Shown here: positions 16,938-62,566 of the stretch, one piece after another
Layout: every line of letters starts with the position of its first letter
Position numbering within the stretch: the stretch's first letter is position 1
Source of the DNA: an uncultured Pelagibacteraceae bacterium
Lineage (GTDB): Bacteria; Pseudomonadota; Alphaproteobacteria; Pelagibacterales; Pelagibacteraceae
Length of the DNA: 64,000 nucleotides
Assembly: GCA_902579465.1 (NCBI GenBank)
Contig: CACHGV010000006.1
Span: forward strand, 1 to 64,000
Direction: 5' to 3'
Made by a program: the position numbers and the translations under genes
Notes under the pieces: generated by a model
Seen by the model: the letters and a program-made list of their open reading frames with translations, nothing else
What the model was told of the DNA's origin: nothing
Database searches by the model: none

Positions 16938-18011
16938 ATGAATGAAAAAAAAATAATCCTCGGAATTGAGACAAGTTGCGATGAAACTGCGGTATCAATT
17001 ATAGAAGAAGATAAAAACGGTAAGATAAAAATATTATCTAACGTAGTTTCAAGTCAATTTGATATTCATAAAGAATTTGGAGGTGTAGTTCCTGAGCTTG
17101 CAGCACGATCTCATGTTGAAAAAATTGATTTAATTGCAAAAAAAGCAATTAATGAAAGTGGTGTGAATTTAAATGATGTTTCTGCAATTGCTTCAACATA
17201 TGGTCCAGGGTTAATTGTTTGCCTTACTGTTGGTTTAAATTTTGGTAAAGCACTATCTGCAAGCTTAAATATACCTTTTATTGGTGTAAACCATCTTGAA
17301 GGGCATGCGTTAAGTCCAAAACTTAGCAAAAGCTTAGATTTCCCATATTTATTATTATTAATTTCAGGAGGACATACACAATATCTTAGTGTGAATGGAC
17401 TTGGAAAATATAAAAGATTAGGAACAACAATTGATGATGCTTTAGGAGAAGCATTTGACAAAACTGCAAAACTCCTAGGTATTGAATTTCCAGGAGGATC
17501 GAAGTTAGAAGATTTTGCAAAGCAGGGAGATGCAAATAAATTTAAACTTCCTAAACCAATTATAAATAAAGGGGGATGTAATTTATCATTTGCAGGTCTT
17601 AAAACTGCAATTTTAAGGATATCAAGCACTATAAAATCTAAACAAGAAAAATATGATCTTGCAGCATCTTTTCAAAAAACAATTGAAGAAATTTTAGAAG
17701 TAAAAACACAAATTGCATTTGATGAGTTCAAAAAGACCAACAAAAAGAAAAATAAAACTTTTGTAATCGCTGGAGGTGTTGCTGCCAACAAGGGTATTAG
17801 AAAAAAATTAATAAAAGTATGTAAGAAGAATGATTTCAGACCAATTTTTCCTGAACCAAAATTGTGTGGGGATAATGCAGCTATGATTGCACTAGTTGGT
17901 CTTAAAAAGTATAAAATCAAAAAATTTGATAATTTGGATCTTCCTGCGAGTCCAAGACTACCACTTGATGAAAATGCAAAGTTTTTAAAAGGCGCAGGTG
18001 TGAGGTTATAA
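16938..18011 (+). CDS. tsaD: tRNA N6-threonylcarbamoyladenosine transferase TsaD
   Basis: TsaD transfers the threonylcarbamoyl group to A37 of ANN-decoding tRNAs, with TsaB, TsaC and TsaE. The 357-residue protein has GIETSCDETA (9-18), the metal-binding HxxxH motif at His119/His123 (NHLEGHALSP), LLISGGHTQ and GGVAANKG. It is divergent from hemC, a common arrangement in alphaproteobacteria. A 38-codon basic ORF follows its stop directly. Confidence 0.97.
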   Translation: MNEKKIILGIETSCDETAVSIIEEDKNGKIKILSNVVSSQFDIHKEFGGVVPELAARSHVEKIDLIAKKAINESGVNLNDVSAIASTYGPGLIVCLTVGLNFGKALSASLNIPFIGVNHLEGHALSPKLSKSLDFPYLLLLISGGHTQYLSVNGLGKYKRLGTTIDDALGEAFDKTAKLLGIEFPGGSKLEDFAKQGDANKFKLPKPIINKGGCNLSFAGLKTAILRISSTIKSKQEKYDLAASFQKTIEEILEVKTQIAFDEFKKTNKKKNKTFVIAGGVAANKGIRKKLIKVCKKNDFRPIFPEPKLCGDNAAMIALVGLKKYKIKKFDNLDLPASPRLPLDENAKFLKGAGVRL

Positions 18012-18146: not shown

Positions 18147-19097
18147 TTAATAATTAGAATTTTTTAGATAATATTTTATCATTAATTTAACCATTTTTTT
18201 TCCATATATATAGTTTTTCTTAACAATATTGTTTTTCACTAAACTCTCTCGGTATTTTGATGTTTTAATTTTAATATCTATAGGTCTTAAAAATTTCTTA
18301 TCTTGTATGATATATTTCTTATAATCTAATTTAAAATAATCAAAAGCAAACTTAAGCATTTTTTTTGCAGATAAACATTTTCCATTAGAAATAATAAAGT
18401 CTTGTGGTTCTTTTTTTAAAAATTTAAACAATAATTCACACTGATCGTCACACCAATTCCATTCCCTTTGAATATCTAAATTACCAAATTTAGTTTTAAT
18501 TTTATACTTATATGCATTGATTGCAGCCATACATACTTTAGGAATAAAGAAAGATTTATCTCTAAGAGTAGATTCTGTATTGAAAATTATTGCATTGTAT
18601 GCCTTTAAATTATATTTTTCTCTATAAAGTTTAGTTAAATTAAATCCTTTTAGTTTACTTATTCCGTATGGATTTACAGGATATTTTTTACTTCTAAGAG
18701 AAATTTTTCCTTTGAGATTACCATACATTTCAGATGAGGCTGCATAAATAAATTTAATATTTTTGTCAATTTTGTAGATACATTCTAAGACATTTTTGCA
18801 TCCAATAAAATTACTCCTAAATGTCTCTTTTTTTTTTACGAAGGAAATGTTTGGCGAGCTTTGACCAGCAAAATAAAAAATATTTTGTGGTTTGTATTTT
18901 TCAATAATCTTAATAATTTTTTCTTTGTTATAAATATCTAAAACAATTACTTCAAAAAAAAAATTTTTAGTTATAGATTTTTTAAATCTTGAAGTAATGA
19001 TTACCTTTTCTTTTTTTTTATTTAATAAATTTTTTAAGGAAATACCGAATTGTCCTGTACCTCCAATAATTAGTGAATGACATTTAGAATTAATCAT
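18147..19097 (-). CDS. NAD-dependent epimerase/dehydratase, GDP-mannose 4,6-dehydratase-like
   Basis: The 316-residue protein is an extended short-chain dehydrogenase acting on a nucleotide sugar. It shows the NAD-binding GGTGQFG (13-19), the catalytic Ser in YAASSEMYG, the YxxxK pair in PYGISKLKG, and GNLDIQREWNWCDD, which parallels the GDP-mannose 4,6-dehydratase signature. The order of motifs fits GMD, but residues around the sugar pocket differ, so the substrate is open. It is alone, unusually A/T- and Lys-rich, and inserted between tsaD and the EVE gene; a role in surface polysaccharide is likely. Confidence 0.8.
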   Translation of the reverse strand: MINSKCHSLIIGGTGQFGISLKNLLNKKKEKVIITSRFKKSITKNFFFEVIVLDIYNKEKIIKIIEKYKPQNIFYFAGQSSPNISFVKKKETFRSNFIGCKNVLECIYKIDKNIKFIYAASSEMYGNLKGKISLRSKKYPVNPYGISKLKGFNLTKLYREKYNLKAYNAIIFNTESTLRDKSFFIPKVCMAAINAYKYKIKTKFGNLDIQREWNWCDDQCELLFKFLKKEPQDFIISNGKCLSAKKMLKFAFDYFKLDYKKYIIQDKKFLRPIDIKIKTSKYRESLVKNNIVKKNYIYGKKMVKLMIKYYLKNSNY

Positions 19098-25652: not shown

Positions 25653-27281
25653 ATGTTGTTTAAAAGTTCTTTTAATTATATCAATGAATTTTACTTTATT
25701 CTCAAAAACCAAATTAGAAATATTTATTTAAATTCATCAATTTATAATAAAAAAATTTCAAGAGTTGATGAAAATGTCTTAGTTTATCAACCAAGTCTTA
25801 ATATACTTAGTTCATTAATAAAATACGAAAAACAAAAAAAGAAGATTGAAGATTTTAATATTCAATCAATATGGGAAAATAAAGATTTAAAATATAACGA
25901 TTTTAGAAAACTTCATAGTTTTTATTGGTTGTTTTCAATTGATCTTAAATCTTCAAATGAAATTACTCAGTCAATTATTTCAAATTGGATTAAAAGAAAT
26001 AAAAATTATGAAAAAAAGAGTTGGGAAATAGATATTCTTTCTAAAAGAGTAATAGCTTGGATTTCAAATTCAAAAATAACCTACGAAGAGTCTGGAAATA
26101 ATTATAAAAATAGTTTTAATGAAATAATTAGTAAACAAGTAAATCATTTGATAAATGAAATTGATAGATCATTTAATTTAAATGATAAAATGGTCGGATG
26201 TACAGCAATAACACTTGCAGGAATAGCTTACAAAAACAGCAGATTTTTAGAGTATGGCTTAGATTTGCTTAAAAAAATTATTAATACTTCTTTTGATAAT
26301 TACTACTTTCCAAAATCAAGGAATATAAGACAGATGATATTTTATTTAAAATATTTTATTTTAATAAGAGAGCTACTAAAAGACTCTCTTAATGATATTC
26401 CAGATTACTTAGATGAAATAATTCATTATCTTGGCAAATCCTATGATTTTATTTGGGGATCAATAAAGCAAAATTTATTATTTAACGGTAACAGTAGTTC
26501 TGATAGCAAAGACTTTGATAAATATCTTTCTCTCTTTAGATATAAGTTTAAAAATGATAAGTTTGATATTTCAGGATATACAATCTTAAAAAGTAAAAAT
26601 GTAATCCTGGCAATGGATACGGGAAATAACCCATCAAAAAATTACTCCGAAAATTATCAAAGTGGACCATTATCATTTGAATTTTTTTTTAAAAATAGAA
26701 AACTAATTACAAACTCTGGTTATTTTCAAGATTATAATCATCAACTTAATTCGATTTCTAAATCAACTGCAGCTCACTCAACATTAATATTAGATAATTC
26801 TTCTGCTTGTAATTTTAAAAAAAATGATAAATGGCCAAGTACAGTTAATAAAGGATTTAAAACGTTTGATAATAAAGTAGCTTATGAAAAAAATTACTGG
26901 AGCATTAAATGTTCACATGATGGATATCTATCAAGATATGGGGTGATACATCAAAGAAATTTAGAATTTGATGTTGATAAAAATATTCTATTTGGAAAAG
27001 AAAAACTTATCAAAAAGAAAAATTTTAAGGTTACAAACTTTGAAATAAGATTTCATCTTCTTCCAAATATTAAAGTAACAAAACTTCAAGATAATAAATC
27101 TGTTTTAATAGAGTTAGAGAATTCTGGTTGGAGATTCTTTTCAAATGATGGATTAATAGGAGTTGAAACTGGACTATACTTTGGTAATAAAAATAAATAT
27201 ATTGAGAACCAGAATATTTTTATCTCGGGTGTAACCCAAAATAATGAACAATTAATTAAATGGCAGATTAATAAAATATGA
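25653..27281 (+). CDS. Heparinase II/III family protein
   Basis: The 542-residue protein has an N-terminal alpha-helical toroid and a C-terminal beta-sheet region, as in heparinase II/III-like polysaccharide lyases. The clearest motif is in the beta region around residues 340-380: LITNSGYFQDY and STAAHSTLILDN, matching the heparinase II/III-like domain. No signal peptide is seen. In alphaproteobacteria this gene sits between rpe and purH, as here, and its true substrate is not established. It overlaps purH by 4 bases. Confidence 0.87.
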   Translation: MLFKSSFNYINEFYFILKNQIRNIYLNSSIYNKKISRVDENVLVYQPSLNILSSLIKYEKQKKKIEDFNIQSIWENKDLKYNDFRKLHSFYWLFSIDLKSSNEITQSIISNWIKRNKNYEKKSWEIDILSKRVIAWISNSKITYEESGNNYKNSFNEIISKQVNHLINEIDRSFNLNDKMVGCTAITLAGIAYKNSRFLEYGLDLLKKIINTSFDNYYFPKSRNIRQMIFYLKYFILIRELLKDSLNDIPDYLDEIIHYLGKSYDFIWGSIKQNLLFNGNSSSDSKDFDKYLSLFRYKFKNDKFDISGYTILKSKNVILAMDTGNNPSKNYSENYQSGPLSFEFFFKNRKLITNSGYFQDYNHQLNSISKSTAAHSTLILDNSSACNFKKNDKWPSTVNKGFKTFDNKVAYEKNYWSIKCSHDGYLSRYGVIHQRNLEFDVDKNILFGKEKLIKKKNFKVTNFEIRFHLLPNIKVTKLQDNKSVLIELENSGWRFFSNDGLIGVETGLYFGNKNKYIENQNIFISGVTQNNEQLIKWQINKI

Positions 27282-28825: not shown

Positions 28826-29164
28826 TTAGTCAATTCTGTCAATTTTTGCAGCAAGTACAAAATCACTTTCGTGAAGCCCGTTAATTGCATGAGTTTGTAT
28901 TTTTATTTTTGCATATCCCCAACCAAACCATATGTCTGGATGATGACCTTCTTGTTCTGCAATTTCGCCAACTTTATTGACAAATGATTGACTTTCTAAA
29001 AAACTATTAAATTTAAAATTCTTAATAATATAATAATCTTTTTCATCTTCAGACTTCACATCCCATCCGTCAACTTTTTTAAGATATTTGTGAATTTCCT
29101 CTAAATTAAAACTAGGAATACCTCCTTCGCAAGGAATACACTTTTTATCAGCTAAATCATTCAT
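28826..29164 (-). CDS. phhB: Pterin-4a-carbinolamine dehydratase
   Basis: This enzyme dehydrates 4a-hydroxytetrahydrobiopterin, regenerating the pterin cofactor of phenylalanine hydroxylase. The protein has the family pattern DLADKKCIPCEGG and the active-site stretch EQEGHHPDIWFGW plus a later His in THAINGLHESDF. I chose the ATG at 29164 (MNDLADKK), matching homologs (112 residues); an in-frame ATG at 29173 would add three residues. It overlaps the end of the sulfotransferase gene slightly. No phenylalanine hydroxylase gene is in the window. Confidence 0.93.
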   Translation of the reverse strand: MNDLADKKCIPCEGGIPSFNLEEIHKYLKKVDGWDVKSEDEKDYYIIKNFKFNSFLESQSFVNKVGEIAEQEGHHPDIWFGWGYAKIKIQTHAINGLHESDFVLAAKIDRID

Positions 29165-30002
29165 TAATCTCATACCCTAATTCATTTAATTCATTTTGCA
29201 AAGTATTATTTAGTTTATTTAGAACATTATTTGGTAAAATTTTTTGCCATCTATTATTAAACCCTAAATTAAAAAATCTTTTTTTTTCTCCGGATTTAGA
29301 ATATACACTTTCTTCAAAACCCTCATTTTCCTCTTTATTTTTTAAATTAGAAAAATTTGTAGAATTAATTGAATTAATAAATTTTTTTTCATCAATTGAT
29401 TGATTATCATTTTTCAAAGTGTTTATAAAATTTACTATTTTTTTAAAAGTATCAAATTTATTATTCTCTAAATCCTCATATTTTATAAATAAAATTTTAA
29501 AACTATTTGTATTTTTCCAAGACTTATAATGGCTCGACCATGATCCTAAAAATGTAAAATTGCTATAATCACCATCTGCAGATTTTTCTAGAAGTGTTTG
29601 ATTTTCATTTTTTATCTTAAAATATGCTTGGTCATAATTAATTGAGTAATGATGTTTCATTGATGTTATTAAATTTCTAGGATCTCTTACTATGTAAATT
29701 CCACCAAGTGATAAATTTTTTGTAGTAAAACTATTTCCCTTATATTCGTTAAGGTTACTGTGCGTTTTTATAAAATGTAATTTTTCTCCAGAAAAAAACT
29801 GCTGCTGATTATAAATCCAACTTTGACTCGCTTCTAGTTCTGAATTAATTTTTTTTTTTGAAAATTTTATTGATGGAAATTGAAGAATATTTAAAAGTAA
29901 ATCAAAATCAAATTTTCCTTTTTTTGAAAAATAATATGAAGAAATAAAAGATCTTAAATATGTATTTCCGCTTTTAGGATAAGAGGCGATCCAAATAATC
30001 AT
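29157..30002 (-). CDS. Sulfotransferase domain protein
   Basis: The 281-residue protein is a PAPS-dependent sulfotransferase by motif: SYPKSGNTYLRS (5'-phosphosulfate loop) at the N-terminus, and GIYIVRDPRNLITSMKHHYS (3'-phosphate binding) near residue 110. I chose the ATG at 30000-30002. An ORF reading from 30053 is an artefact, since its first 17 codons lie in the antisense-read tRNA-Gly gene. The gene starts 6 bases beyond the tRNA 3' end and may be read from the tRNA promoter. It closely resembles the pair at 59468-61186. Acceptor unknown; a surface glycan is likely. Confidence 0.88.
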   Translation of the reverse strand: MIIWIASYPKSGNTYLRSFISSYYFSKKGKFDFDLLLNILQFPSIKFSKKKINSELEASQSWIYNQQQFFSGEKLHFIKTHSNLNEYKGNSFTTKNLSLGGIYIVRDPRNLITSMKHHYSINYDQAYFKIKNENQTLLEKSADGDYSNFTFLGSWSSHYKSWKNTNSFKILFIKYEDLENNKFDTFKKIVNFINTLKNDNQSIDEKKFINSINSTNFSNLKNKEENEGFEESVYSKSGEKKRFFNLGFNNRWQKILPNNVLNKLNNTLQNELNELGYEINE

Positions 30003-30008
30003 AATTTT

Positions 30009-30083
30009 TGGAGCGGGCAATGGGACTCGAACCCACGACCTTCTCGTTGGCAACGAGACGCTCTACCACTGAGCTATGCCCGC
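30009..30083 (-). tRNA. tRNA-Gly(GCC), CCA encoded
   Basis: Read on the minus strand from 30083, the acceptor stem GCGGGCA pairs with TGCCCGC, the D-arm is GCTCAGTGGTAGAGC, the anticodon arm is TCTCG-TTGCCAA-CGAGA with anticodon GCC, and the T-arm has TTCGAGT. Discriminator T and CCA follow. The fold is complete. The first 41 bases of the tRNA (30043-30083) are duplicated exactly at 31690-31730, so the 5' half of this gene may have been supplied by an inserted islet. Confidence 0.97.
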
Positions 30084-30158
30084 TTGTTAAAAAATCATTA
30101 TAGATAGCGGTTTTTAGAAATGCAAGTATTAGTTAAATTAGTAAAATTTATCACCAAC

Positions 30159-30181
30159 TGTGTCGTGAGTGTGTCGAGATT
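30159..30181 (+). repeat. 23-bp direct repeat, left copy
   Basis: This 23-base sequence (starts TGTGTCGTGAGTG, ends TCGAGATT) recurs exactly at 31614-31636 in the same orientation. The two copies lie just inside the duplicated tRNA-Gly segments and flank the propeller gene. Its G+C content exceeds that of the surroundings. Confidence 0.9.
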
Positions 30182-30210
30182 TTTTTAAAACTTTACATGA
30201 AAGTTTATGT

Positions 30211-30228
30211 TGGGGGCTAACGCCCCCA
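30211..30228. other. GC-rich hairpin downstream of propeller gene
   Basis: GGGGGC (30212-30217), loop TAAC and GCCCCC (30222-30227) make a perfect six-bp stem 18 bases past the propeller gene's stop. An A/T-rich inverted repeat AAACTTT/AAAGTTT (30188-30206) lies beside it. No T-run follows directly on the minus strand, so it may be a weak terminator or 3' mRNA-stabilising structure. Confidence 0.55.
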
Positions 30229-30245
30229 CAGGCTTAATTTAGTTA

Positions 30246-31496
30246 TTAATCTAATCTATAAATTGTAACTGATTTTTCTTTGTCAACTTCATTAGCACTT
30301 ATAAATAAGTTCCGTTGTGGAATAGCAACCAAACCTTCTGGTCCAATACCCGTTGGTAAAATAGCAACTAATTCTGGGTTTTTCAAATCGTTTGCTTTAT
30401 AAACGCCGATAGCATTTGCTCTTTCAGCACCAACAAAGATATAACGTGTATCACCATATATTGCTACTTCAACTGACTCTGGTTCTACACCTTTTTTCTC
30501 TGCACGTTTTTCTGGCCAGTAACCTGCTGAAGCGAGTGCTCTTTCATATGACGAACCTGACTCGTATACCACCGAACCATTTTTATTGAAGATTGTCCAT
30601 CCACGACTACCACCACGTTTCGCTTGACCTGGTGCTTCATGTTTATAGTCACCTTCATTTGCAGTTGCAAAATGATCATCGTCAATCCACTTAACTGCGT
30701 CTGGTTCTCTACGAACATTCTCAATGGTATCAACCATCTTTAGTTCACCATCTTTTTTGTTATCAATACCTACTAATGTTACTAGTCCTGCATCAAACTC
30801 TGAAATTACTTTTCCACTTCGATCAATAACCGCCATCCAGTTATTCTCTTGCATAGTAACAACTATTTCACCTAAATTATTGATATCAACAAACTCAGGC
30901 TCTGGATCGTTAGGAGCAATAGTTGAAAAACCAACTAAGTCCGCTTTAGTAACACTGTTATCTGCTAAATTAATAATTGCCACAAAACCCCCTGGAAGTT
31001 GTGGAATTTTTTCATCGTTGATATCTTCGTTACGTTCATTTTCAATAGCTACTGCCACAAAAGTTCCATCTGGACTAACTGCAACCGAGTCTGGCTGTCC
31101 ACCTAGTTCTACTTTTGTAACTTCTTTTCCTGAGGCAAGATCAACAACTAATAAGTGACCACTTGGCTCTACATAGTTTGGAGAAGTATTGATACCTACA
31201 AATGCTTGTCCATTTTTGATTGCAACACTAGTTGGTTCACCACCTAAATTCATGTGGCCTAATGGTTTCGGATTTGCTGGATCAGTAATATCAATCATGC
31301 CTAATGCGTTTGCAGGGCTATCGCTATATACCAGTTTCATGCCATCTGCTGTTGCCGCAATTATTTCTGCTGATGTTTCTTCTGCACTAGGGTTATTTGC
31401 TGGTGTTCCAAATTTCCCAATTTCTTTAAAGTCTGCATTTACTGTGCTAACAAATGCGGTTGAGGCCAGAAGGCCTGCTAAGATAAATTTTATCAT
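30246..31496 (-). CDS. Exported beta-propeller-like protein (choice-of-anchor I / YVTN-type repeats)
   Basis: This 416-residue protein has a signal peptide (about 1-22, ending VNADFKEIG). The start ATG at 31494-31496 follows a ribosome binding site, AAAAGGAAT; an upstream ATG at 31532 is less likely. The mature part shows repeats of the type LGGQPDSVAVSPDGTFVAVA and GGEPTSVAIKNGQAFVG, as in beta-propellers. HFATANEGDYKHE resembles the NEGD motif of choice-of-anchor I/esterase-like proteins. Acidic and richer in G+C than its neighbours, it is the only gene in an islet between two tRNA-Gly segments. A periplasmic or extracellular role is likely; enzyme activity is not shown. Confidence 0.78.
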   Translation of the reverse strand: MIKFILAGLLASTAFVSTVNADFKEIGKFGTPANNPSAEETSAEIIAATADGMKLVYSDSPANALGMIDITDPANPKPLGHMNLGGEPTSVAIKNGQAFVGINTSPNYVEPSGHLLVVDLASGKEVTKVELGGQPDSVAVSPDGTFVAVAIENERNEDINDEKIPQLPGGFVAIINLADNSVTKADLVGFSTIAPNDPEPEFVDINNLGEIVVTMQENNWMAVIDRSGKVISEFDAGLVTLVGIDNKKDGELKMVDTIENVRREPDAVKWIDDDHFATANEGDYKHEAPGQAKRGGSRGWTIFNKNGSVVYESGSSYERALASAGYWPEKRAEKKGVEPESVEVAIYGDTRYIFVGAERANAIGVYKANDLKNPELVAILPTGIGPEGLVAIPQRNLFISANEVDKEKSVTIYRLD

Positions 31497-31613
31497 TATA
31501 TATTCCTTTTTGTTTTTATGGAAAGATATCAAAACAAGATGAAAAGTTTGTAACAGTTTAATTACAATTATATTTTATTCCACTCACCATAGTTTTTCTT
31601 TTCTGTGTCGAAG

Positions 31614-31636
31614 TGTGTCGTGAGTGTGTCGAGATT
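31614..31636 (+). repeat. 23-bp direct repeat, right copy
   Basis: This is the exact second copy of the sequence at 30159-30181, in the same orientation, 118 bases upstream of the propeller gene start. The whole 31497-31801 gap has no gene; besides this repeat it holds only the partial tRNA copy. Confidence 0.9.
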
Positions 31637-31689
31637 AACTAGACGTTGAGAAAGACTAAGATTAGCAAGGATAAAAAACCAAGGACTAC

Positions 31690-31730
31690 CTCGTTGGCAA
31701 CGAGACGCTCTACCACTGAGCTATGCCCGC
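31690..31730 (-). pseudogene. Partial tRNA-Gly copy (5' end to anticodon stem), probable attachment-site remnant
   Basis: These 41 bases are identical to 30043-30083 of the intact tRNA-Gly(GCC), covering acceptor 5' strand, D-arm and anticodon arm. The T-arm and 3' acceptor strand are absent, so no tRNA can be made. Similarity continues 3 to 5 bases past the tRNA 5' end (TGTT). The arrangement is what site-specific insertion into the tRNA 5' half would leave. The islet between the copies is about 1.6 kb and has no integrase. Confidence 0.88.
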
Positions 31731-31801: not shown

Positions 31802-33442
31802 TTAATATTTTATTTTAGCACTATCTAGAGTTTCTTGCATTATTTTTAAATGATCTTGATATTTTTTCCACTCATCAGATGTATTTTTTTTTAATGTTCC
31901 TCGTACTTGTAAGAGAGAGGCGGTCTGGACGGGTCTGACATTTTTGCTATAATTTTTCAGATTCTCTTCCCACTTAATTCCAAGCTTTTTAACTAGACTG
32001 AATGTTTCATTTTCAAAGTCATTTACAAAACTTTCATATCGAATATGTATTATTTTTTCTTTAAGTTTGTCTGACCAAAATTTTATTAAATCGTCATATA
32101 ATATATAATATTTTGCAGTATCCTTTTGACTAAGAGAGAAATCCATACCAGGATCAGGAAAATTAATTCTGTAATTTGACCAACAGATAGCCATTGGATT
32201 TCTTTGAATATGAATAATTTTAGCCTCTGGGAAAGCTTTGACTATGAAACCTATCCATCTAAAATTCATTGGTAATTTATCAATAATAAATTTTTTATTA
32301 CTCAATAGAGATAACTTTTCATAATATTCTGATCTTATGGTTTTTATAAAATCTTCAAAATTTTGAAGTTTATCCAATTTGAACTTATCCATAATTTTAG
32401 GTAAATAATTAAGTTCACCAGCACCATGTATATTTGAATGAGATGAAAGAACTTGTTCTAAAAGAGTTGTTCCAGATCTTGGCATACCAAGAATAAAGAT
32501 AGGTGTAATATTGAGTTTATCTTTATACTTAGCTTGTTCATTTAAATTTTGTTCAAAAATATTTTTAATTTTTTCAAAGAGTTTTTTTTCTGTTTGAAAA
32601 CTAAAATTTGATTTTTTTTTTTTTATTTTATGTGATTCTTCCAGATATTTTAAAGCTAAATCAGATTGATTTAAATCAAAGTTACATTTACTTAAACTGG
32701 TATATGCGAATATTTTATCTTCATCAGAGGCTTTTGATAGATCAAGTTTTTCTAGTTTTTCTAAGAATTTATTATCTTTTTCTACTTTTGTAATTAAAAA
32801 ATAATTTTTAAAAGCTCTTATATGCTTATCATCAATATTAATTACTTTTTCAAATAATTTTCTTCCTTCATCTACATTTCCAAGAATTAAATTTAAATAA
32901 CCTAAATCATTTAAGGCTGTAGTATTATTTTCATCAAATTTTAAAACATCCAGAAGTACTTTTTTAAGATCATCAAAATTTTTTTCTTCACTATATGCAT
33001 GTGCTAAGTTGAAATATGCTGGGAAATTCTTTTTATTAAATTTTATAGCTTTTTTATAATTTTTAACTGCCTCATCGATAAATCCTAACCTAAATTTAGT
33101 ATTTCCTAGATTATTATAAGCTTCCGAATAGTCAAATTTGAGATTGATAGCTTTTAAAAAATACTCTGAAGCTTCATTATAATTTTTTAATTGTTTAAGA
33201 ATATTGCCATAAATATAATAATTTTCTGCATTTGGCTTTAATGATATAATACTTCTAAAAAATTTTTCTGCTTCTATATAATCTTTTAAAGTTAAATTTG
33301 TTACCCCTAATGCATACAATACTTGAAAATCATTATTTTTCTTTAAAAATTTCTTTCCTAATTTAATTACTTTTTCAAATTTTCCTTTATTAAAATTATC
33401 TAAAATAATTTTTTTGTTATTTAAAATAATTTCAGTATTCAT
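31802..33442 (-). CDS. TPR-containing sulfotransferase family protein
   Basis: The 546-residue protein joins about eight tetratricopeptide repeats (residues 1-250; repeats of the type NAENYYIYGNILKQLKNYNE and SEAYNNLGNTKFRLGFIDEA) to a sulfotransferase-like domain. The latter begins PIFILGMPRSGTTLLEQVL (about 308-326), the phosphosulfate-binding loop, and has IIHIQRNPMAICWS downstream. No signal peptide. This fusion family is common in marine alphaproteobacteria; the TPR part likely binds a protein partner or acceptor. It is the last gene of a cluster with a 2OG oxygenase and another TPR protein. Confidence 0.9.
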   Translation of the reverse strand: MNTEIILNNKKIILDNFNKGKFEKVIKLGKKFLKKNNDFQVLYALGVTNLTLKDYIEAEKFFRSIISLKPNAENYYIYGNILKQLKNYNEASEYFLKAINLKFDYSEAYNNLGNTKFRLGFIDEAVKNYKKAIKFNKKNFPAYFNLAHAYSEEKNFDDLKKVLLDVLKFDENNTTALNDLGYLNLILGNVDEGRKLFEKVINIDDKHIRAFKNYFLITKVEKDNKFLEKLEKLDLSKASDEDKIFAYTSLSKCNFDLNQSDLALKYLEESHKIKKKKSNFSFQTEKKLFEKIKNIFEQNLNEQAKYKDKLNITPIFILGMPRSGTTLLEQVLSSHSNIHGAGELNYLPKIMDKFKLDKLQNFEDFIKTIRSEYYEKLSLLSNKKFIIDKLPMNFRWIGFIVKAFPEAKIIHIQRNPMAICWSNYRINFPDPGMDFSLSQKDTAKYYILYDDLIKFWSDKLKEKIIHIRYESFVNDFENETFSLVKKLGIKWEENLKNYSKNVRPVQTASLLQVRGTLKKNTSDEWKKYQDHLKIMQETLDSAKIKY

Positions 33443-33477: not shown

Positions 33478-34074
33478 TTATGATGCAAAGTCAAACCAGC
33501 CAGTAATTATATATTTAGTTCCACTTTTCAGTACTGACCCTGTATGTGCATGTGTCCACTCTGCGGGCCAAATTAATGTTTTATTTTGTTGAGGCTTAAT
33601 TTTTAATCCATAATGATCGAAGTCGGTTGTTCCCCCATCATTGACATCATTTAAGTATGTCATGAAAGCAAAAATTCTATGTAATGTTGATAGTCCTGTC
33701 CTTTCAGAATGTAAGGCTGCAAAATGATCTCCTGGTAAGTATTTTTGTAAATTAAAAGGTCCAATATTAACTTTTGTTAAAAATTGTTTTACAAAGGGCC
33801 ATTGCTCTCTGTAATCCAAAAAACATTTTTGAAGTTCTGAGAAATAATCTTGAAAAACTTTATATTTTGGATCTGATAATTTATTTGGACTTATTGTAAT
33901 ATCTGTTGATTTTTTTCTGTTTTCTTCAACTCCTTTTGCTGTAGATCCTTTTTTTTGAAGAGATTTATTATTTTCAAAAAATTCAATTAAGTCATTGCTA
34001 ATATTTTTACCTTCAAGATGCCAACAGCCAATAAAATTTGGTGATTTACTATTTTTTATATCAATTCTTTTCAT
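33478..34074 (-). CDS. 2-oxoglutarate/Fe(II)-dependent oxygenase (prolyl hydroxylase-like)
   Basis: The 198-residue protein has the double-stranded beta-helix pattern of 2OG-Fe(II) oxygenases. The iron ligands appear to be His122 and Glu124 (LHSERTG, an HxE rather than HxD motif) and a distal His at 175 or 177 (WTHAHTG), with Lys187 (SGTKYIITGWF) placed to bind 2-oxoglutarate. GGTTDFDHYGLKIKP matches the P4H-type loop. It overlaps the TPR gene upstream by 4 bases (ATGA). Such enzymes hydroxylate protein side chains; the TPR neighbour could bind the substrate. Confidence 0.83.
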   Translation of the reverse strand: MKRIDIKNSKSPNFIGCWHLEGKNISNDLIEFFENNKSLQKKGSTAKGVEENRKKSTDITISPNKLSDPKYKVFQDYFSELQKCFLDYREQWPFVKQFLTKVNIGPFNLQKYLPGDHFAALHSERTGLSTLHRIFAFMTYLNDVNDGGTTDFDHYGLKIKPQQNKTLIWPAEWTHAHTGSVLKSGTKYIITGWFDFAS

Positions 34075-34823
34075 TTAAGTAAGTTAACTCCATTTTCGTC
34101 AAGTTGCAAAAAACCTGCCCCTTTCCTAATGTAAGATAAACCCTCTTTATGAAAATTTAAAGCTAACAATGATTGTCCTAATAAATTATTTAAAGTTCTA
34201 TTACTTGGGTATTTTGTGATTACTTTTGGAACAAAGTCTTGTATCTCATTTTTCTTACCTGTTTTAAATAAACATATTGTATATTTTTCACATATTTCTT
34301 CATGCCTTGCTTTTAAATTAATTATATTCTTATAGTAATCTAAAGCTTCAATATACTTTTCTAATAAAAAATACAGGCTTGCAAGATTGTAGCAAGCTTC
34401 AACATTATTTTTATTTAAATTTATAGATTTCTTATAATTTAGTATAGCCTCATCATATTTATTTAAAGCCTTTAGAGTACTTCCTAAATTATTAAATGCC
34501 TCAGAAAAATTTGAATTTAATTTTATAGCTTCTTCAAATGAGGTAACTGCTCGATTTAATTTTTTAAGCTTTTTTTGAATATTCCCTAAAGTATATAAAT
34601 TCTCTGCTGTCTTTTTAAATAAAATTAATTTTTCAAAGTAATTTTCTGCACCAGCAAAGTTTTGAAGATTTATAGACGCTAGTCCTAGCATAAATAATAG
34701 TTGTGCATCATTTTGTCTCTCTTTTAATAGATTTTCTCCGTCAACTATTACTTCTTGAAAATTTTTTTTTTTAAAAGAATTAAGAACTTTATCTTTTTGT
34801 TTTTCTAAATTATTTGAATTCAT
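34071..34823 (-). CDS. Tetratricopeptide repeat protein
   Basis: The 250-residue protein is made almost entirely of TPRs, clearest at SEAFNNLGSTLKALNKYDEA and VEACYNLASLYFLLEKYIEA, with consensus spacing of 34 residues. No catalytic domain or signal peptide. It resembles the TPR half of the TPR-sulfotransferase at 31802 and is translationally coupled to the oxygenase (4-base overlap). It diverges from the Lon-N gene with a gap of only 26 bases. Probable role is as a binding partner. Confidence 0.88.
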   Translation of the reverse strand: MNSNNLEKQKDKVLNSFKKKNFQEVIVDGENLLKERQNDAQLLFMLGLASINLQNFAGAENYFEKLILFKKTAENLYTLGNIQKKLKKLNRAVTSFEEAIKLNSNFSEAFNNLGSTLKALNKYDEAILNYKKSINLNKNNVEACYNLASLYFLLEKYIEALDYYKNIINLKARHEEICEKYTICLFKTGKKNEIQDFVPKVITKYPSNRTLNNLLGQSLLALNFHKEGLSYIRKGAGFLQLDENGVNLLK

Positions 34824-57028: not shown

Positions 57029-58300
57029 ATGAATATTCAAGAATTAAAAGAAAAAAGCTCAGAAAAATTAATCACCGAAGCTGAAAAGCTAGGTATAGAA
57101 AACGCTAGCACATTACGAAGACAAGAAATTTATTTTGCAATTTTAAAAAAGCTTGCAGAAAAAGGTGAAGAGATTACCGGTGGAGGTGTTCTGCAATTAT
57201 TGCAAGATGGCTTTGGCTTTCTTAGAGCAATGGAGTCTAATTATTTACCGGGTGCAGATGATATATACGTAAGCCCAAGTCAAATCAGAAGATTTGGTTT
57301 AAGAACTGGTGATAGTGTTGAAGGACCTATTAGATCTCCAAAAGAAGGAGAGAGATATTTTGCACTTCTTCAAGTCAGCAAAATAAATTTTGAAGAACCA
57401 GATAAATTTAAACACAAAATTGCTTTTGATAACCTAACACCTCTTTATCCAAACAAACAATTGGGAATGGAAGTTGAAACAAACAAAGTTGAAAAAAAAC
57501 CTGATTTAACCCCAAGACTTATTGATCTTGTTAGTCCGATTGGAAAAGGCCAAAGATCTTTAATCATTTCACCTCCAAAAGCTGGTAAAACAATGATTTT
57601 ACAAAGTATAGCTAACTCTATCACAGCTAATCATCCTGAATGTTATCTAATGGTTCTATTAATAGATGAAAGACCTGAAGAAGTTACAGATATGCAGAGA
57701 ACAGTTAAAGGTGAAGTTATTAGTTCTACGTTTGATGAACCAGCACAACGTCACGTAGCTGTAGCAGAAATGGTGATCGAAAAAGCTAAAAGGCTAACTG
57801 AACATAAAAAAGATGTTGTTATTTTATTAGACTCTATAACTAGGCTAGGAAGAGCCTACAATGCAGTTGTTCCTAGTTCTGGTAAAGTTTTGACAGGTGG
57901 AGTAGATGCGAATGCTCTTCAACGACCAAAGAGATTTTTTGGAGCAGCTAGAAATATTGAAGAAGGTGGATCTCTAACCATTATTGCAACAGCTTTGATT
58001 GATACAGGTAGCAGAATGGATGAAGTGATTTTTGAGGAATTTAAAGGAACAGGAAATAGTGAAACTATTCTGGATAGAAAAATCTCAGAGAAAAGAATTT
58101 ACCCTGCAATTGATATTACAAAATCAGGAACAAGACGAGAAGAACTGATATTTGATAAAAACGATCTTCAAAAAATGAATGTTTTAAGAAGAATTATTGC
58201 TCCAATGGGATCTATGGATGCTATTGATTTTATAAATTCGAAATTAAAAACAACAAAAAACAATGCTGAGTTTTTTAACTCAATGAATAAACCAGCATAA
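57029..58300 (+). CDS. rho: Transcription termination factor Rho
   Basis: Rho is a hexameric RNA helicase that ends transcription. The 423-residue protein has the N-terminal Rho-N domain ([15 protein letters not shown]), the RNA-binding cold-shock-like domain with GFGFLRAME, then Walker [12 protein letters not shown], Walker [17 protein letters not shown] and the Q-loop and R-loop regions following. Length is standard. It lies in the alphaproteobacterial oriC-proximal order after hemJ. Confidence 0.98.
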
Positions 58301-58344: not shown

Positions 58345-59466
58345 ATGCTTAGTCCAGAAATTATTAAAGAAGTTGAAAAAGTTAAATCTTTTGAGAGATT
58401 AGGAGAATATGTAAAAGCATTTAAGGTAAGTCAGTCATTAGTAGAAAATAATGAAAATAATTTTTTTTTACAAAACTTAAATGGTTACATTTTATTTAAA
58501 TTAAACAATTTTAAATCGAGTAAAAAACATTTATCTAAATCTATTGAACTAAACAATAATTTTGCAACTTCGTACTACTTGTTAGGTCTAGTTAATAGGC
58601 AACATAATGAGTTTGAAGATGCCCTAGAAAACTTTATAAAAGCTATTTCTTTGGATATAAATTTAAAGGACGCACATCACAATATCATAAAAATTTTATC
58701 TTCTTTTAAACCAAAAAAAAATTTAAATAATCCATATGTTTTGACTAACTCATTATTAGAAAAAATAAATTTTGATTACAGAGAAAATTTATACATCAAT
58801 GATTCTGAAGTGGTTAGTTTTATTAAAAACTCAATAGAAGTTTTAAAAAAAAATTTAACATACACAGATTTTCCACATATGCAAATCTACAGACATAATT
58901 CAGTTAATTTGAATTGTGATAGGCATTTCAAAGTATTTAATAGTCAAGCCATTATTCCAGAGTTCTGCTTTGAATGTTTTAAGATAGTCATAGAGGTAAA
59001 CAATATTTTAGACTTAATAAAATTGTATTTTGTATTTGATAACCTTTATGTTGGATTAAGAAATAATAGAAAAGTTATGGTTGAACAAAGACCTAATGTA
59101 TCTGGACAATATAAAGGTTTTGTTTACTCACAAAATTTACAAGAATTAGACGAGATTGCTAATAATCTTCAAAAGATAATAAAAAAAAATATTGGAGACA
59201 ATTTTACAATTACTAAGAAAAGAGGTTGCACAGAATTTAGTCAGAAATACCCAAACTATAAAGAAATCAAAAAAGATAAAATGATGAGTTTTAAAACTGA
59301 ATGGAAAGATAAGGAAAAGTATATAGATGGAAAAATTTATAACAAAAACTCAGAAAAAGCCCTTATTAATAAGTATTTAAGTGGTAATAAATTAAATGAC
59401 ATTTTAATAATTAGAAATTGGCTTAAATTTGCAAAAGCGAATGGTGATAAATCTATAGATTTATAA
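58345..59466 (+). CDS. TPR protein with unassigned C-terminal domain
   Basis: The 373-residue product has two or three TPRs in the first 120 residues (DNFKSSKKHLSKSIELNNN-like unit; ATSYYLLGLVNRQHNEFEDA). The region 150-373 is unassigned. It contains a Cys pair in PEFCFECFKIVIEV, a region VEQRPNVSGQYKGFVYSQNL, and a Cys in KKRGCTEF. No sulfotransferase loop is present, although three of this window's TPR proteins are linked to sulfotransferases. It lies between rho and two sulfotransferase genes. Confidence 0.7.
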   Translation: MLSPEIIKEVEKVKSFERLGEYVKAFKVSQSLVENNENNFFLQNLNGYILFKLNNFKSSKKHLSKSIELNNNFATSYYLLGLVNRQHNEFEDALENFIKAISLDINLKDAHHNIIKILSSFKPKKNLNNPYVLTNSLLEKINFDYRENLYINDSEVVSFIKNSIEVLKKNLTYTDFPHMQIYRHNSVNLNCDRHFKVFNSQAIIPEFCFECFKIVIEVNNILDLIKLYFVFDNLYVGLRNNRKVMVEQRPNVSGQYKGFVYSQNLQELDEIANNLQKIIKKNIGDNFTITKKRGCTEFSQKYPNYKEIKKDKMMSFKTEWKDKEKYIDGKIYNKNSEKALINKYLSGNKLNDILIIRNWLKFAKANGDKSIDL

Positions 59467-59467
59467 A

Positions 59468-60328
59468 TCAAATATATTTTAACTCTTTCATTTCTTTTTC
59501 AAATTTTTTCTCTATTTCGCTAGATATACTTTTATCTAAAATTTTCCTCCAATCATTCTTAGGCCCCAGGAAAAAAAATTTATTTCTATTACCATCTTTG
59601 TCGATAGTGCTCTCAGTAAATCCGTTCTCTTTTTCCATATTTTCTAACCTCTCAAATGAGCTTAAATTTATTGCATTTTCTATTTGCGCTTCAGTAAATT
59701 TAACTTTTAACAAACCTCCTATAAAACTTGAAATTTTAGTAAATTCACTTTTAGAATTTTCATACAGATCTTCATATCTTACTAAAATATAATTTTTCTT
59801 CATATTCTTCCAAGATAAATAATGAGTTTTCCATGAGCCAACATATTGTGTTAGTGGAAATTTTTTACTCTTTAAATACAAAGCTTTTTGTCTATCCGAT
59901 AAGGCTAAAATTTGATCATCTTTAAATATAAATTTTTGTGCTTCATCATAACCTGATAATGAATAATGGTTCTTTACTGATGTAATGACATTTCTCGGGT
60001 CTCTAACAATATAAATAGTCCCTAATGTATTTTGAGCGTCTGTAAAAGGATATCCCTTGTACTTACCAAGCATATTATGAGTTTTAAAAAATCTTAGTTT
60101 TTTATCAGAATTTATTTTTTCCTGAGTAGTTATCCAATTTTTTGATATTTCATCTAGATTAAATAAGTTAGAAACAAGATCATCAAAATGTGTAGAATGT
60201 GGATAATTCATTATAGCCCTTAGGTGATTTAAATTCAAATCAGTCTGTTTACCCAAAAGCAATGATATTATAAAAAATCTTAACCACGTATTACCACTTT
60301 TAGGATATGAAGCTAACCAAATGATCAT
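59468..60328 (-). CDS. Sulfotransferase domain protein (tandem copy B)
   Basis: The 286-residue protein has MIIWLASYPKSGNTWLRFFI at the start and TIYIVRDPRNVITSVKNHYS in the middle, so both PAPS-binding loops are present. It is a close relative of the neighbouring gene at 60332 (3 bases upstream) and of the gene at 29157; the same WLASYPKSGNTW start, FFLGPKNDWRK and related ends are seen. Its acceptor is unknown. It converges on the TPR gene with a one-base gap. Confidence 0.92.
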   Translation of the reverse strand: MIIWLASYPKSGNTWLRFFIISLLLGKQTDLNLNHLRAIMNYPHSTHFDDLVSNLFNLDEISKNWITTQEKINSDKKLRFFKTHNMLGKYKGYPFTDAQNTLGTIYIVRDPRNVITSVKNHYSLSGYDEAQKFIFKDDQILALSDRQKALYLKSKKFPLTQYVGSWKTHYLSWKNMKKNYILVRYEDLYENSKSEFTKISSFIGGLLKVKFTEAQIENAINLSSFERLENMEKENGFTESTIDKDGNRNKFFFLGPKNDWRKILDKSISSEIEKKFEKEMKELKYI

Positions 60329-60331
60329 TTT

Positions 60332-61186
60332 TTAAATATATCCGAGTTCACGCATTTCAGTTTCAAACTCTCTTTCTATATCCTCTTTTAACTTTATATC
60401 TAATAATTTTTTCCAATCATTACCAGGTCCTAGATTAAAAAATCGTTTTATTTCTCCAGTTTCTTTATCGTTTATAGCTTCAACAAAACCATTCTCTTTC
60501 TCTAACTTTTTAAGGTTTTCAAAAGAATTTGACTTTACTGATAAATTTACTTTTGTTGCGTCAATTTTAAGATTTAAATGTTTAGATAAATATTCTGCAA
60601 GTTTATTAAATTCTTTATGAGGATTTTGAATTAAGTCTTCATATTTAATTAGTAAATAATTTTTTTTAAATTGTTTCCATGAATTGTAGTGATTCTTCCA
60701 AGATGATATTACTGTAAAAATATTTTTATTTGCATTTGGGTCATTTAAATCAAATTTTTTACCTAGTGCTTTATTTTCATCAAATAAAAATTCTTTAGCT
60801 TCAATATAATTCTTTTTTGAGAAATGATATAGTATTGATGATATTACATTTCTAGGGTCTCTTACAATATGAATTGTTCCAAGTGATACCTCTCCGTTTG
60901 TAAAAAAAGAGTTTTGATATTTACAAAGAGCGTGGTGTGTCTTAAGAATTTTAATTTTATTATCTTTATTTAAAATTTTTTGTGACTCAATCCAATTCGA
61001 TGATAACTTTTCTAAATTATCAATCTCATTTACTAAATTTATAAAATGAGATCTTTTAGGATACTGATCTATTTTGCTTATTTCACTGAGATTCGCTTCA
61101 CTATTTTTATTAAATAACAGTGAATTCAAAAATGATCTTACCCAGGTATTTCCACTTTTAGGATATGAAGCTAACCAAATAATCAT
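60332..61186 (-). CDS. Sulfotransferase domain protein (tandem copy A)
   Basis: The 284-residue protein shows MIIWLASYPKSGNTWVRSFL and TIHIVRDPRNVISSILYHFS, both sulfotransferase loops, plus FFNLGPGNDWKKLLDIKL near the end. Its strong similarity to the 59468 gene and the 3-base spacing point to a tandem duplication. Two copies suggest divergence of acceptor specificity. Starts 48 bases before the divergent mnmE start. Confidence 0.92.
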   Translation of the reverse strand: MIIWLASYPKSGNTWVRSFLNSLLFNKNSEANLSEISKIDQYPKRSHFINLVNEIDNLEKLSSNWIESQKILNKDNKIKILKTHHALCKYQNSFFTNGEVSLGTIHIVRDPRNVISSILYHFSKKNYIEAKEFLFDENKALGKKFDLNDPNANKNIFTVISSWKNHYNSWKQFKKNYLLIKYEDLIQNPHKEFNKLAEYLSKHLNLKIDATKVNLSVKSNSFENLKKLEKENGFVEAINDKETGEIKRFFNLGPGNDWKKLLDIKLKEDIEREFETEMRELGYI

Positions 61187-61234: not shown

Positions 61235-62566
61235 ATGACAATCTATGCTCTCTCCTCAGGACCTGGTATCTCAGGTATCGCAGTTATTAGAATATCAGGT
61301 GCTAAAGTTAAAGAGATTGTTAAATTAATTACAAACGGCCAACTTCCAAAACCAAGGCAAGCAACCTTAAAAAAATTCAGTAAAATCAACAATTCTGAGC
61401 TTATAGATGAAGGAATATTAATGTGGTTTCCAGGCCCTGAGAGCTATACAGGCGAGGATATGGCTGAAATACATGTGCACGGTAGCATTGCTGTTGTAAG
61501 GGCAATTTTAGATCAATTATCTAAAATTGAAAATTGTCGACTTGCTGAGCCTGGTGAATTTACAAAAATTGCTTTTCAAAATGAAAAAATAAATCTTCTT
61601 AAAGCTGAGAGCATATCCGATCTCATTTCTGCAGAAACAGAAATTCAAAGACAACAAGCTATTAAAATTATGAGTGGGAAAAGTTCAGATAAATTTAATT
61701 CAATAAGAGAAAAACTTTTAAAAATTCTATCAAACGTTGAAGCTAAAATTGATTTTCCTGAGGATGATCTCCCAGATGATGTAATTAAAAATATAAAAAG
61801 TGATACAAAAAAAATGAGATTAGAAATTGAAAAAATTTTGAACGATCAAAAAGTTGGTGAAAGAATTAGAGAAGGTTTTAAGATTGCGATTATTGGGCCA
61901 GCCAATGCAGGAAAATCCTCTTTGCTTAATTATCTTTCCAATCGTGATGTAGCTATTGTTTCAGAAATTGCAGGAACTACAAGAGATGTTATCGAAGCTC
62001 ATTTAAATTTAGATGGCTATCCTGTTGTGATTTCTGATACTGCTGGGATTAGAGAGTCGCAAGATGAGATAGAAAAAAAAGGAATTAAATTAGCTCTCAA
62101 ACGTGCTGAGGATGCTGATTTAAACATAATAGTAATTGAGCCAAAAAGTGTTAATTTTACTGGATTTTTGAACGATTTGGTTAGTGAAAAATCAATAATT
62201 GTAATCAATAAAATAGACCTTGGTTATAAAGATATTAATCAACAAATTGAAAAGTTTAATCCAATTTTTTTATCAATTAAAAATGAAACAAATTTAGATG
62301 AGTTAATAAATAGAATTAAAGATAAACTAAAAAATAAGTTTGTTAGTTCAAATGAAACTCTAATTACGAGAGAAAGACATAGACAAAGTTTAGAAGCTTG
62401 TGTTCAAAATTTAATCAACTTCGAGGAAAAAAACTCTCAAGAAGATTTTGATAAAGCTGCAGAAGATTTAAGATTGGCAACCAGACATTTAGGAATGATC
62501 GTTGGTAAAGTAGATGTTGAAGAAATATTAGGATCTATTTTTAATGATTTTTGTATAGGCAAATAA
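61235..62566 (+). CDS. mnmE: tRNA modification GTPase MnmE
   Basis: MnmE works with MnmG to add the carboxymethylaminomethyl group to U34 of tRNAs. The 443-residue protein has an N-terminal tetrahydrofolate-binding domain (TIYALSSGPGISGIAVIRIS), the helical domain, the G domain with GPANAGKSSLLN and the DTAGIR switch, and the C-terminal motif CIGK. All expected elements are present. It stands next to mnmG, its partner. Confidence 0.98.
   Translation: MTIYALSSGPGISGIAVIRISGAKVKEIVKLITNGQLPKPRQATLKKFSKINNSELIDEGILMWFPGPESYTGEDMAEIHVHGSIAVVRAILDQLSKIENCRLAEPGEFTKIAFQNEKINLLKAESISDLISAETEIQRQQAIKIMSGKSSDKFNSIREKLLKILSNVEAKIDFPEDDLPDDVIKNIKSDTKKMRLEIEKILNDQKVGERIREGFKIAIIGPANAGKSSLLNYLSNRDVAIVSEIAGTTRDVIEAHLNLDGYPVVISDTAGIRESQDEIEKKGIKLALKRAEDADLNIIVIEPKSVNFTGFLNDLVSEKSIIVINKIDLGYKDINQQIEKFNPIFLSIKNETNLDELINRIKDKLKNKFVSSNETLITRERHRQSLEACVQNLINFEEKNSQEDFDKAAEDLRLATRHLGMIVGKVDVEEILGSIFNDFCIGK

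Follow-up and report, generated by a model that had tools for sequence, protein, structure and literature searches.

Why does a SAR11 genome carry two sulfotransferase genes head to tail beside mnmE, and what would such enzymes do there? The source contig belongs to SAR11, which ranks with the most abundant groups of marine organisms. The window, by which we mean the whole stretch of 64,000 nucleotides that was analysed, is contig C6 of a 1.11-Mb genome that is 78.6% complete. The explanation that we consider probable is that the sulfotransferases (STs) are PAPS-type enzymes that sit in fixed slots, are swapped as gene-indel alleles by recombination in the flanks, and decorate the cell envelope.

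The sulfotransferases of the window

A preliminary description of the window had reported the tandem pair between a TPR gene and mnmE, a third copy 6 bases after tRNA-Gly, a TPR-sulfotransferase nearby and four sulfotransferase domains in 64 kb, and this arrangement was recovered (Table 1). Both ORFs of the pair, ST-A and ST-B, exceeded the cut-off of Pfam PF00685 (22 bits) with 86 and 104 bits, respectively, and ST-C did so with 76 bits. ST-B is divergent to mnmE, with 48 bases separating the two starts. The ORF listing had put the start of ST-C at a TTG within the tRNA; after correction to the ATG at 30002, a 6-base gap to tRNA-Gly (30009-30083, minus strand) remains. The TPR-sulfotransferase near ST-C exists at 31802-33442, but it is a Sulfotransfer_3 protein (PF13469, 136 bits) and belongs to another Pfam family than ST-A, ST-B and ST-C, so that the four domains are three of PF00685 and one of PF13469. 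ST-A shares 48% identity with ST-B and 43% with ST-C, and a search of the 78.6% complete genome with ST-A as query recovered the three STs and no others at E ≤ 0.001. The location given for the pair, beside the replication origin in a usually conserved region, stood in part: a nearby origin is suggested by mnmG/rsmG/parA/parB-like genes (named by eye) that follow mnmE in the related locus L007, and the flanking genes rho and mnmE are conserved, whereas the gap between them is variable.

Table 1 Features of the window discussed in the text (S1 and S3, slots between core genes; ST, sulfotransferase)
Feature	Position	Strand	Basis
NDP-sugar dehydratase-like gene, in another variable gap (16938-18011 / 19318)	18147-19097	-	PF16363
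phhB-like (pterin dehydratase), core flank of S3	28826-29173	-	ORF; flank in relatives
ST-C, Sulfotransfer_1, tRNA-Gly site (S3a)	29157-30002	-	ORF, Pfam
tRNA-Gly(gcc)	30009-30083	-	tRNA search
Inserted cassette, ends approximate	30084-31676	.	Repeats, comparison with relatives
26-nt direct repeats in cassette	30156-30181 / 31611-31636		
Beta-propeller gene in cassette	30246-31532	-	PF22494
Truncated tRNA-Gly copy, far end of cassette	31677-31730	-	Exact 41 nt at 31690-31730
TPR + Sulfotransfer_3 protein, S3 cargo	31802-33442	-	Pfam
2OG-Fe(II) oxygenase, S3 cargo; also matches phrog_61	33478-34074	-	Pfam, phrog
TPR protein, S3 cargo	34071-34823	-	Pfam
rho, left core flank of S1	57029-58300	+	ORF; homologs flank slot in relatives
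TPR-orf, TPR repeats + C-terminal domain, part of the window's slot cargo	58345-59466	+	Pfam TPR, alignment
ST-A, Sulfotransfer_1 sulfotransferase, 286 aa	59468-60328	-	Pfam, predicted fold
ST-B, Sulfotransfer_1 sulfotransferase, 284 aa	60332-61186	-	ORF, Pfam
mnmE, right core flank of S1	61235-62566	+	ORF; marker for finding slot in 88 genomes

K10, K82-T83-H84, R109-D110-P111-R112 and S117 were invariant in all 131 full-length STs of the alignment (a set of 135, from which 4 under 255 aa were excluded); we take the P-loop lysine, the KTH histidine and RDPR..Ser to be the PAPS-binding and catalytic residues. An AlphaFold2 model of ST-A, built from a 67-row alignment, had a pLDDT of 95.5, and its best match in the PDB was Teg12 with PAP (Z 22.8, rmsd 2.8, 242 aligned). 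Further matches were other PAPS-dependent sulfotransferases, including many SULTs at Z 17-20, and the structures listed from the fold search have ~18-26% identity to ST-A. Between the window STs and their relatives, dN/dS was 0.07-0.17 in 14 comparisons (12 distinct, because L007 and L291 are evidently one genome and were counted once), which supports purifying selection. With their catalytic positions retained, the genes called paralogs in the preliminary description are real paralogs and look like working enzymes. Computation thus establishes the Sulfotransfer_1 family, fold and catalytic residues of ST-A, ST-B and ST-C; sulfotransferases of this fold use PAPS, and we infer a cytosolic location and PAPS-dependent activity for the three.

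The window STs share with the Sulfotransfer_1, or cytosolic SULT-type, enzymes (PF00685) the fold, the 5'-PAPS loop ASYPKSGNT, the KTH histidine and the RDPRN..S motif, and the glycopeptide sulfotransferases Teg12 and StaL are their nearest solved structures. Unlike the wider Sulfotransfer_1 family, they are nearly confined to one genus: of 148 genomes drawn from across the order, 80 matched the ST family, 78 of them from the genus, 1 from another genus of the same family and 1, by a weak match, from another family.

Slots between core genes

The gap that holds the tandem pair is bounded by two ORFs that we take, by sequence, to be rho and mnmE (slot S1). Among the best 80 relatives from named genomes, a set biased by having been chosen by similarity, an ST lay beside mnmE and/or rho in 62, in one to four copies. 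A more even draw comprised the window genome and 100 genomes of the genus, each at least 70% complete, a level at which genes can be missed. The ST family was carried by 73 of these 101 genomes (E ≤ 0.001). mnmE was usable in 88, and an ST adjoined it in 47, as one copy in 39 genomes, two in 6 and three in 2, with a start mostly 39-67 bp from mnmE. The STs are therefore not fixed in all relatives at the same sites, one of the two conditions under which the preliminary description was to fall.

A census of the junctions covered 86 of the 87 relatives with a usable mnmE (G096 was omitted). S1 was filled in 64 relatives, holding an ST in 46 and other cargo only in 18; it was empty in 21, where rho lies 30-100 bp from mnmE, and ambiguous in 1. 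In the terms of the earlier proposed check on gene gain and loss, STs are thus present at this site in some relatives and absent from it in others. Counting as cargo every ORF that was at least 90 aa long or had a hit, we found 91 genes: 55 STs, 20 GT41, 12 TPR-Sulfotransfer_3, 1 GT2 and 1 carbamoyltransferase. Transferases made up 89 of the 91, and the remaining 2 encode TPR proteins that weakly resemble GT9 (Glyco_transf_9, 15.1 bits against a cut-off of 22, for one of the two at a loose threshold). The PF13844 cut-off was exceeded by all 20 GT41 genes, a PF13469 search re-found all 12 TPR-Sulfotransfer_3 genes at the same places, the carbamoyltransferase lay above its Pfam cut-off, and the GT2 gene barely did so (24.2 vs 23.3 bits). 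In the census, S1 holds one to three STs, which always read away from mnmE; three named relatives have four. The junctions were clean in all 14 loci inspected for this.

Two readings of S1 content were tried and dropped. TPR-Sulfotransfer_3 with an ST (1/45 vs 11/37, Fisher p 8e-4 with relatedness ignored) hinted at mutual exclusion, for which relatedness-corrected pairs gave no support. An apparently decayed ST in the slot of G048 was set aside because the rho gene of that contig (L176) is broken as well, pointing to sequence errors; the locus is still scored as an ST in the census and the trees.

The window's slot also holds the TPR-orf, found as well in the named relatives L007, L009, L012 and L052. 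Its cysteines C191, C208, C211 and C295 were invariant in 10 aligned sequences. The C-terminal domain had no match in Pfam or in a fold search whose list was filled by TPR matches, so that novelty is not implied. Homologs of the TPR-orf occur at S2 and S3 in relatives.

STs recur at S2 (hslU / Smr-like), S3b (lonN-like / tRNA-Gly) and S3a (tRNA-Gly / phhB-like), flanks whose gene names are our assignments by sequence (the ORF at 28826-29173 is presumably a phhB-like pterin dehydratase), and at no fewer than three further places beyond S1, S2 and S3. S3 additionally takes TPR-Sulfotransfer_3, 2OG oxygenase, TPR and GT41 genes. In genomes assembled as single contigs, the combinations differ: G009 has no ST at S1-S3, G065 has one ST, at S2, G103 has STs at S1 and at S3, G105 has ST and TPR-Sulfotransfer_3 at S1 and an ST at S3, and G115 has ST and TPR-Sulfotransfer_3 at S3.

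Some further observations concern these gaps. The gap with the NDP-sugar dehydratase-like gene has the same two core flanks in the single-contig genomes G009, where it holds a GT41 gene, and G111, where it holds an ST. A heparinase II/III-like protein at 25653-27281 adjoins purH, and a homolog stands in that order in many S3 loci. In L224 and L225 (G088:C13), the flanks of S2 and S3 have changed places, as would result from an inversion of the intervening segment with both breakpoints inside the slots; this is known from one contig and may be an artefact.

History of the slot genes

The preliminary description had named distance in phylogeny of the three single-domain copies as a refuting condition, and by this test they are distant. 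The ST tree led us to reject a recent duplication, and a recent local expansion is not supported. ST-C fell within a 12-row clade made up exclusively of tRNA-Gly-site genes, every one of which, that of the window included, has the tRNA 5-28 bases upstream. ST-A belonged to a clade of 11 rows from the rho|mnmE site, whereas ST-B fell outside it and had a different gene of the rho|mnmE site as its partner. When chromosomal site was mapped onto the tree of 135 STs, 24 changes were required against a shuffled mean of 78.0, and eight site groups (with S3 divided at the tRNA, the S1 positions merged and five rows left out) required 13 changes, with a minimum of 7 and a shuffled mean of 68.3; none of 200 shuffles was as low in either test. 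STs that break the site rule account for 8 changes at S1, 3 at S2 and 3 at S5 (the labels S5 and S6 are based on flanking ORF lengths only). Each slot thus mostly has its own ST lineage, and the STs appear from this tree to be old, site-bound paralogs that cluster by chromosomal site and not by genome.

Are the slots landing sites of integrative or phage-borne elements that carry STs as cargo, tRNA-Gly being the site for ST-C? An insertion did occur at this tRNA. The first 41 nt of tRNA-Gly are duplicated exactly (30043-30083 and 31690-31730), and between the tRNA-Gly of ST-C and the TPR-Sulfotransfer_3 gene lies a 1.6-kb phage-related cassette. Its beta-propeller gene matches phage family phrog_23282 (E 1.6e-142) and, at 82% DNA identity over 984 bases, an IMG/VR contig. 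The cassette is 98-100% identical to that of G091, against 72-88% in flanking 200-base windows; G219 carries it at 99.7% over 1601 bases, and it is absent from G004 and G092. It is a recent insertion. At ≥ 80 aa it contains only the beta-propeller gene and shorter overlapping ORFs, with no integrase, and a test for an RNA fold of the tRNA remnant was negative (z 0.14).

The evidence from the STs themselves points elsewhere. No tRNA remnant adjoins ST-C, for which reason we rejected it as cargo of a tRNA-targeted element; when 349 loci were searched for exact matches to the 41-nt tRNA part, L229 was the sole one besides the window to have two copies, and these bracket the beta-propeller gene, not ST-C. 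The window has no second copy of the tRNA-Gly 3' part at up to 3 mismatches. No cargo gene of 90 aa or more in the 86 S1 slots is an integrase, and the window's own S1 is not at a tRNA and has no evident flanking repeat, the repeats within it being the paralogs themselves or weak AT-rich matches. A phage origin of the STs was likewise rejected, since viral contigs yielded two weak relatives of 25-30% identity (two patterns used). We therefore regard delivery of the STs by mobile elements as very improbable.

The main rival to exchange of slot alleles is differential loss alone, in which the genus ancestor had STs at all sites and independent losses followed without exchange between strains. 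Clustering of the STs by site and the near-minimal spacing in empty slots agree with it, and gene loss is a known feature of streamlined genomes. With the best rho tree, of 82 rows, however, S1 requires 19 changes in ST presence, 11 in GT41, 7 in TPR-Sulfotransfer_3 and 15 in emptiness, and the first three also demand gains of unrelated cargo. These counts are to be read with the tree, in which 26 of 79 inner branches are weak, the starred branches force only 8 changes (plain-ST state) and rho itself may recombine. Close pairs also differ, for example L226 (ST) and L259 (empty), and dS between the window and L130 jumps between neighbouring genes: 0.24 in mnmE, 0.60 in ST-B, 1.55 in ST-A, 0.95 in rho and 1.51 in hemH. 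We consider loss alone unlikely.

The clean junctions, the patchy distribution over the rho tree and the dS jumps suggest instead that slot alleles are exchanged by homologous recombination in the core flanks, which would be the simplest reading. Because the slots mostly keep their own ST lineage, presence or absence would spread as an allele through the conserved flanks and not by jumping between sites. Exchange within populations is not visible here because the genus set holds one genome per species.

Sulfate donor and possible role

Where would the STs obtain PAPS? The parts of Smith et al. (2016; PMC5069961) available to us report that SAR11 strains lack assimilatory sulfate reduction but possess AprBA; the text counts cysC among the missing genes, yet Table 3 has one in 5 of 7 strains, and cysQ in all 7. 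The words "sulfotransferase" and "PAPS" are absent from those parts of the text. In the genus set, CysD was found in none of 101 genomes, ATP sulfurylase in 5 and AprA above its cut-off in 93. The APS-kinase profile PF01583 matched in 82, nearly over its whole length in only 16; the remaining matches were mostly a frame of 130-176 codons that covers about the first 60% of the profile. Most genomes are therefore without a recognised PAPS route. Full-length APS-kinase occurred in 10 of the 73 ST carriers and 6 of the 28 non-carriers, which indicates no positive association with STs. Among six single-contig genomes with STs, G065, G105 and G111 have the short form alone, and G103, G113 and G115 have a full-length match as well. 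In G128, which is 98% complete and matches the ST family twice, neither the short nor the full-length APS-kinase form was found.

Compared with longer kinases, all 13 aligned sequences of the short form (from 11 genomes, G009 and G065 being entered twice) are missing some 30 residues of the C-terminal half; of 10 loci selected to supply longer kinases for this alignment, the motif filter took 6. In all four loci read, it adjoins a small nucleotidyltransferase-like gene. One such pair, at 4471-5249 of L091, comprises a 135-residue APS-kinase homolog and a 123-residue nucleotidyltransferase-like protein; the pair is widespread, and in L091 its neighbourhood is dioxygenase/M24-like, as named by eye. 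The missing residues and the presence of the short form in G009, which is without STs, led us to reject it as an established PAPS source and to keep that role as a speculative reading only. PAPS chemistry without sulfate assimilation could run from sulfite to APS by AprBA, the short kinase homolog would phosphorylate APS, the swappable STs would spend the PAPS on the cell surface, and CysQ would recycle PAP; alternatively, the short kinase and the small nucleotidyltransferase might together make a different 3'-phosphonucleotide donor for the sulfotransferase-fold enzymes. We give such schemes a small chance.

As to the acceptor, the slot cargo of known family consists of transferases able to decorate glycans, lipids and proteins, and the glycosyltransferases and carbamoyltransferase among it favour decoration. 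From these cargo classes, an envelope role is the most likely one. The STs occupy swap slots at fixed places between the genus's core genes, and S1 takes STs and/or GT41, TPR-Sulfotransfer_3, GT2 or carbamoyltransferase genes, or nothing. Presence or absence would pass as an allele by recombination through the flanks, and the STs would add sulfate to an envelope glycan, lipid or glycoprotein whose synthesis is encoded elsewhere; a swap of one slot gene would then change the surface decoration. The preliminary description had read the four domains as an investment in sulfated surface products, possibly against phage or grazers; such products would fit the envelope role, and defence would be a speculative further step. 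The STs could instead act on a small metabolite in detoxification, storage or signalling, as the closest folds, those of glycopeptide-antibiotic and small-molecule sulfotransferases (Teg12, StaL, SULTs), would allow; nor does any polysaccharide or glycan operon adjoin the slot in the window. The slot partners, glycosyl- and carbamoyltransferases of kinds that decorate glycans or proteins, speak against this, and we hold a small-metabolite role to be somewhat unlikely.

Variation by single genes has precedents in this group. Wilhelm et al. (2007; PMC2217521) describe polymorphic gene indels of SAR11 in an otherwise syntenic core, and the tables of that paper give SAR11_0312, with a potential sulfotransferase domain, as never on syntenic fragments and SAR11_1215, a sulfotransferase, in HVR4. 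The likeness is gene presence or absence within a syntenic core; unlike those indels, S1 takes several unrelated transferase families and site-specific ST lineages, and the sections of that paper available to us describe no such slot. The open-licence PubMed Central literature on SAR11/Pelagibacter sulfotransferases yielded no description of the rho|mnmE slot. The replacement flexible genomic islands of the Pelagibacterales O-chain cluster (PMC11898729, as far as available) have different genes of similar function at the same place. In the 86-locus census, S1 likewise has conserved core flanks and interchangeable content of similar function, but it holds 0-3 genes in mixed combinations and not a multi-gene cluster replaced as a whole; unlike the O-chain cluster, the slots hold one to three genes and are spread over several core gaps. 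The accessible parts of that study argue against a fast phage arms race by whole-cluster exchange and leave room for single-gene swaps, which the slots would fit.

The slots bear on the question of how strains come to differ at the surface despite the tiny SAR11 genome, and the missing PAPS route raises the further question of how STs are supplied in cells without sulfate assimilation. Slot state gives exact predictions of which strains should differ. If the reading of envelope decoration is true, single-gene decoration slots would be a cheap means of surface variation besides the known O-chain cluster.
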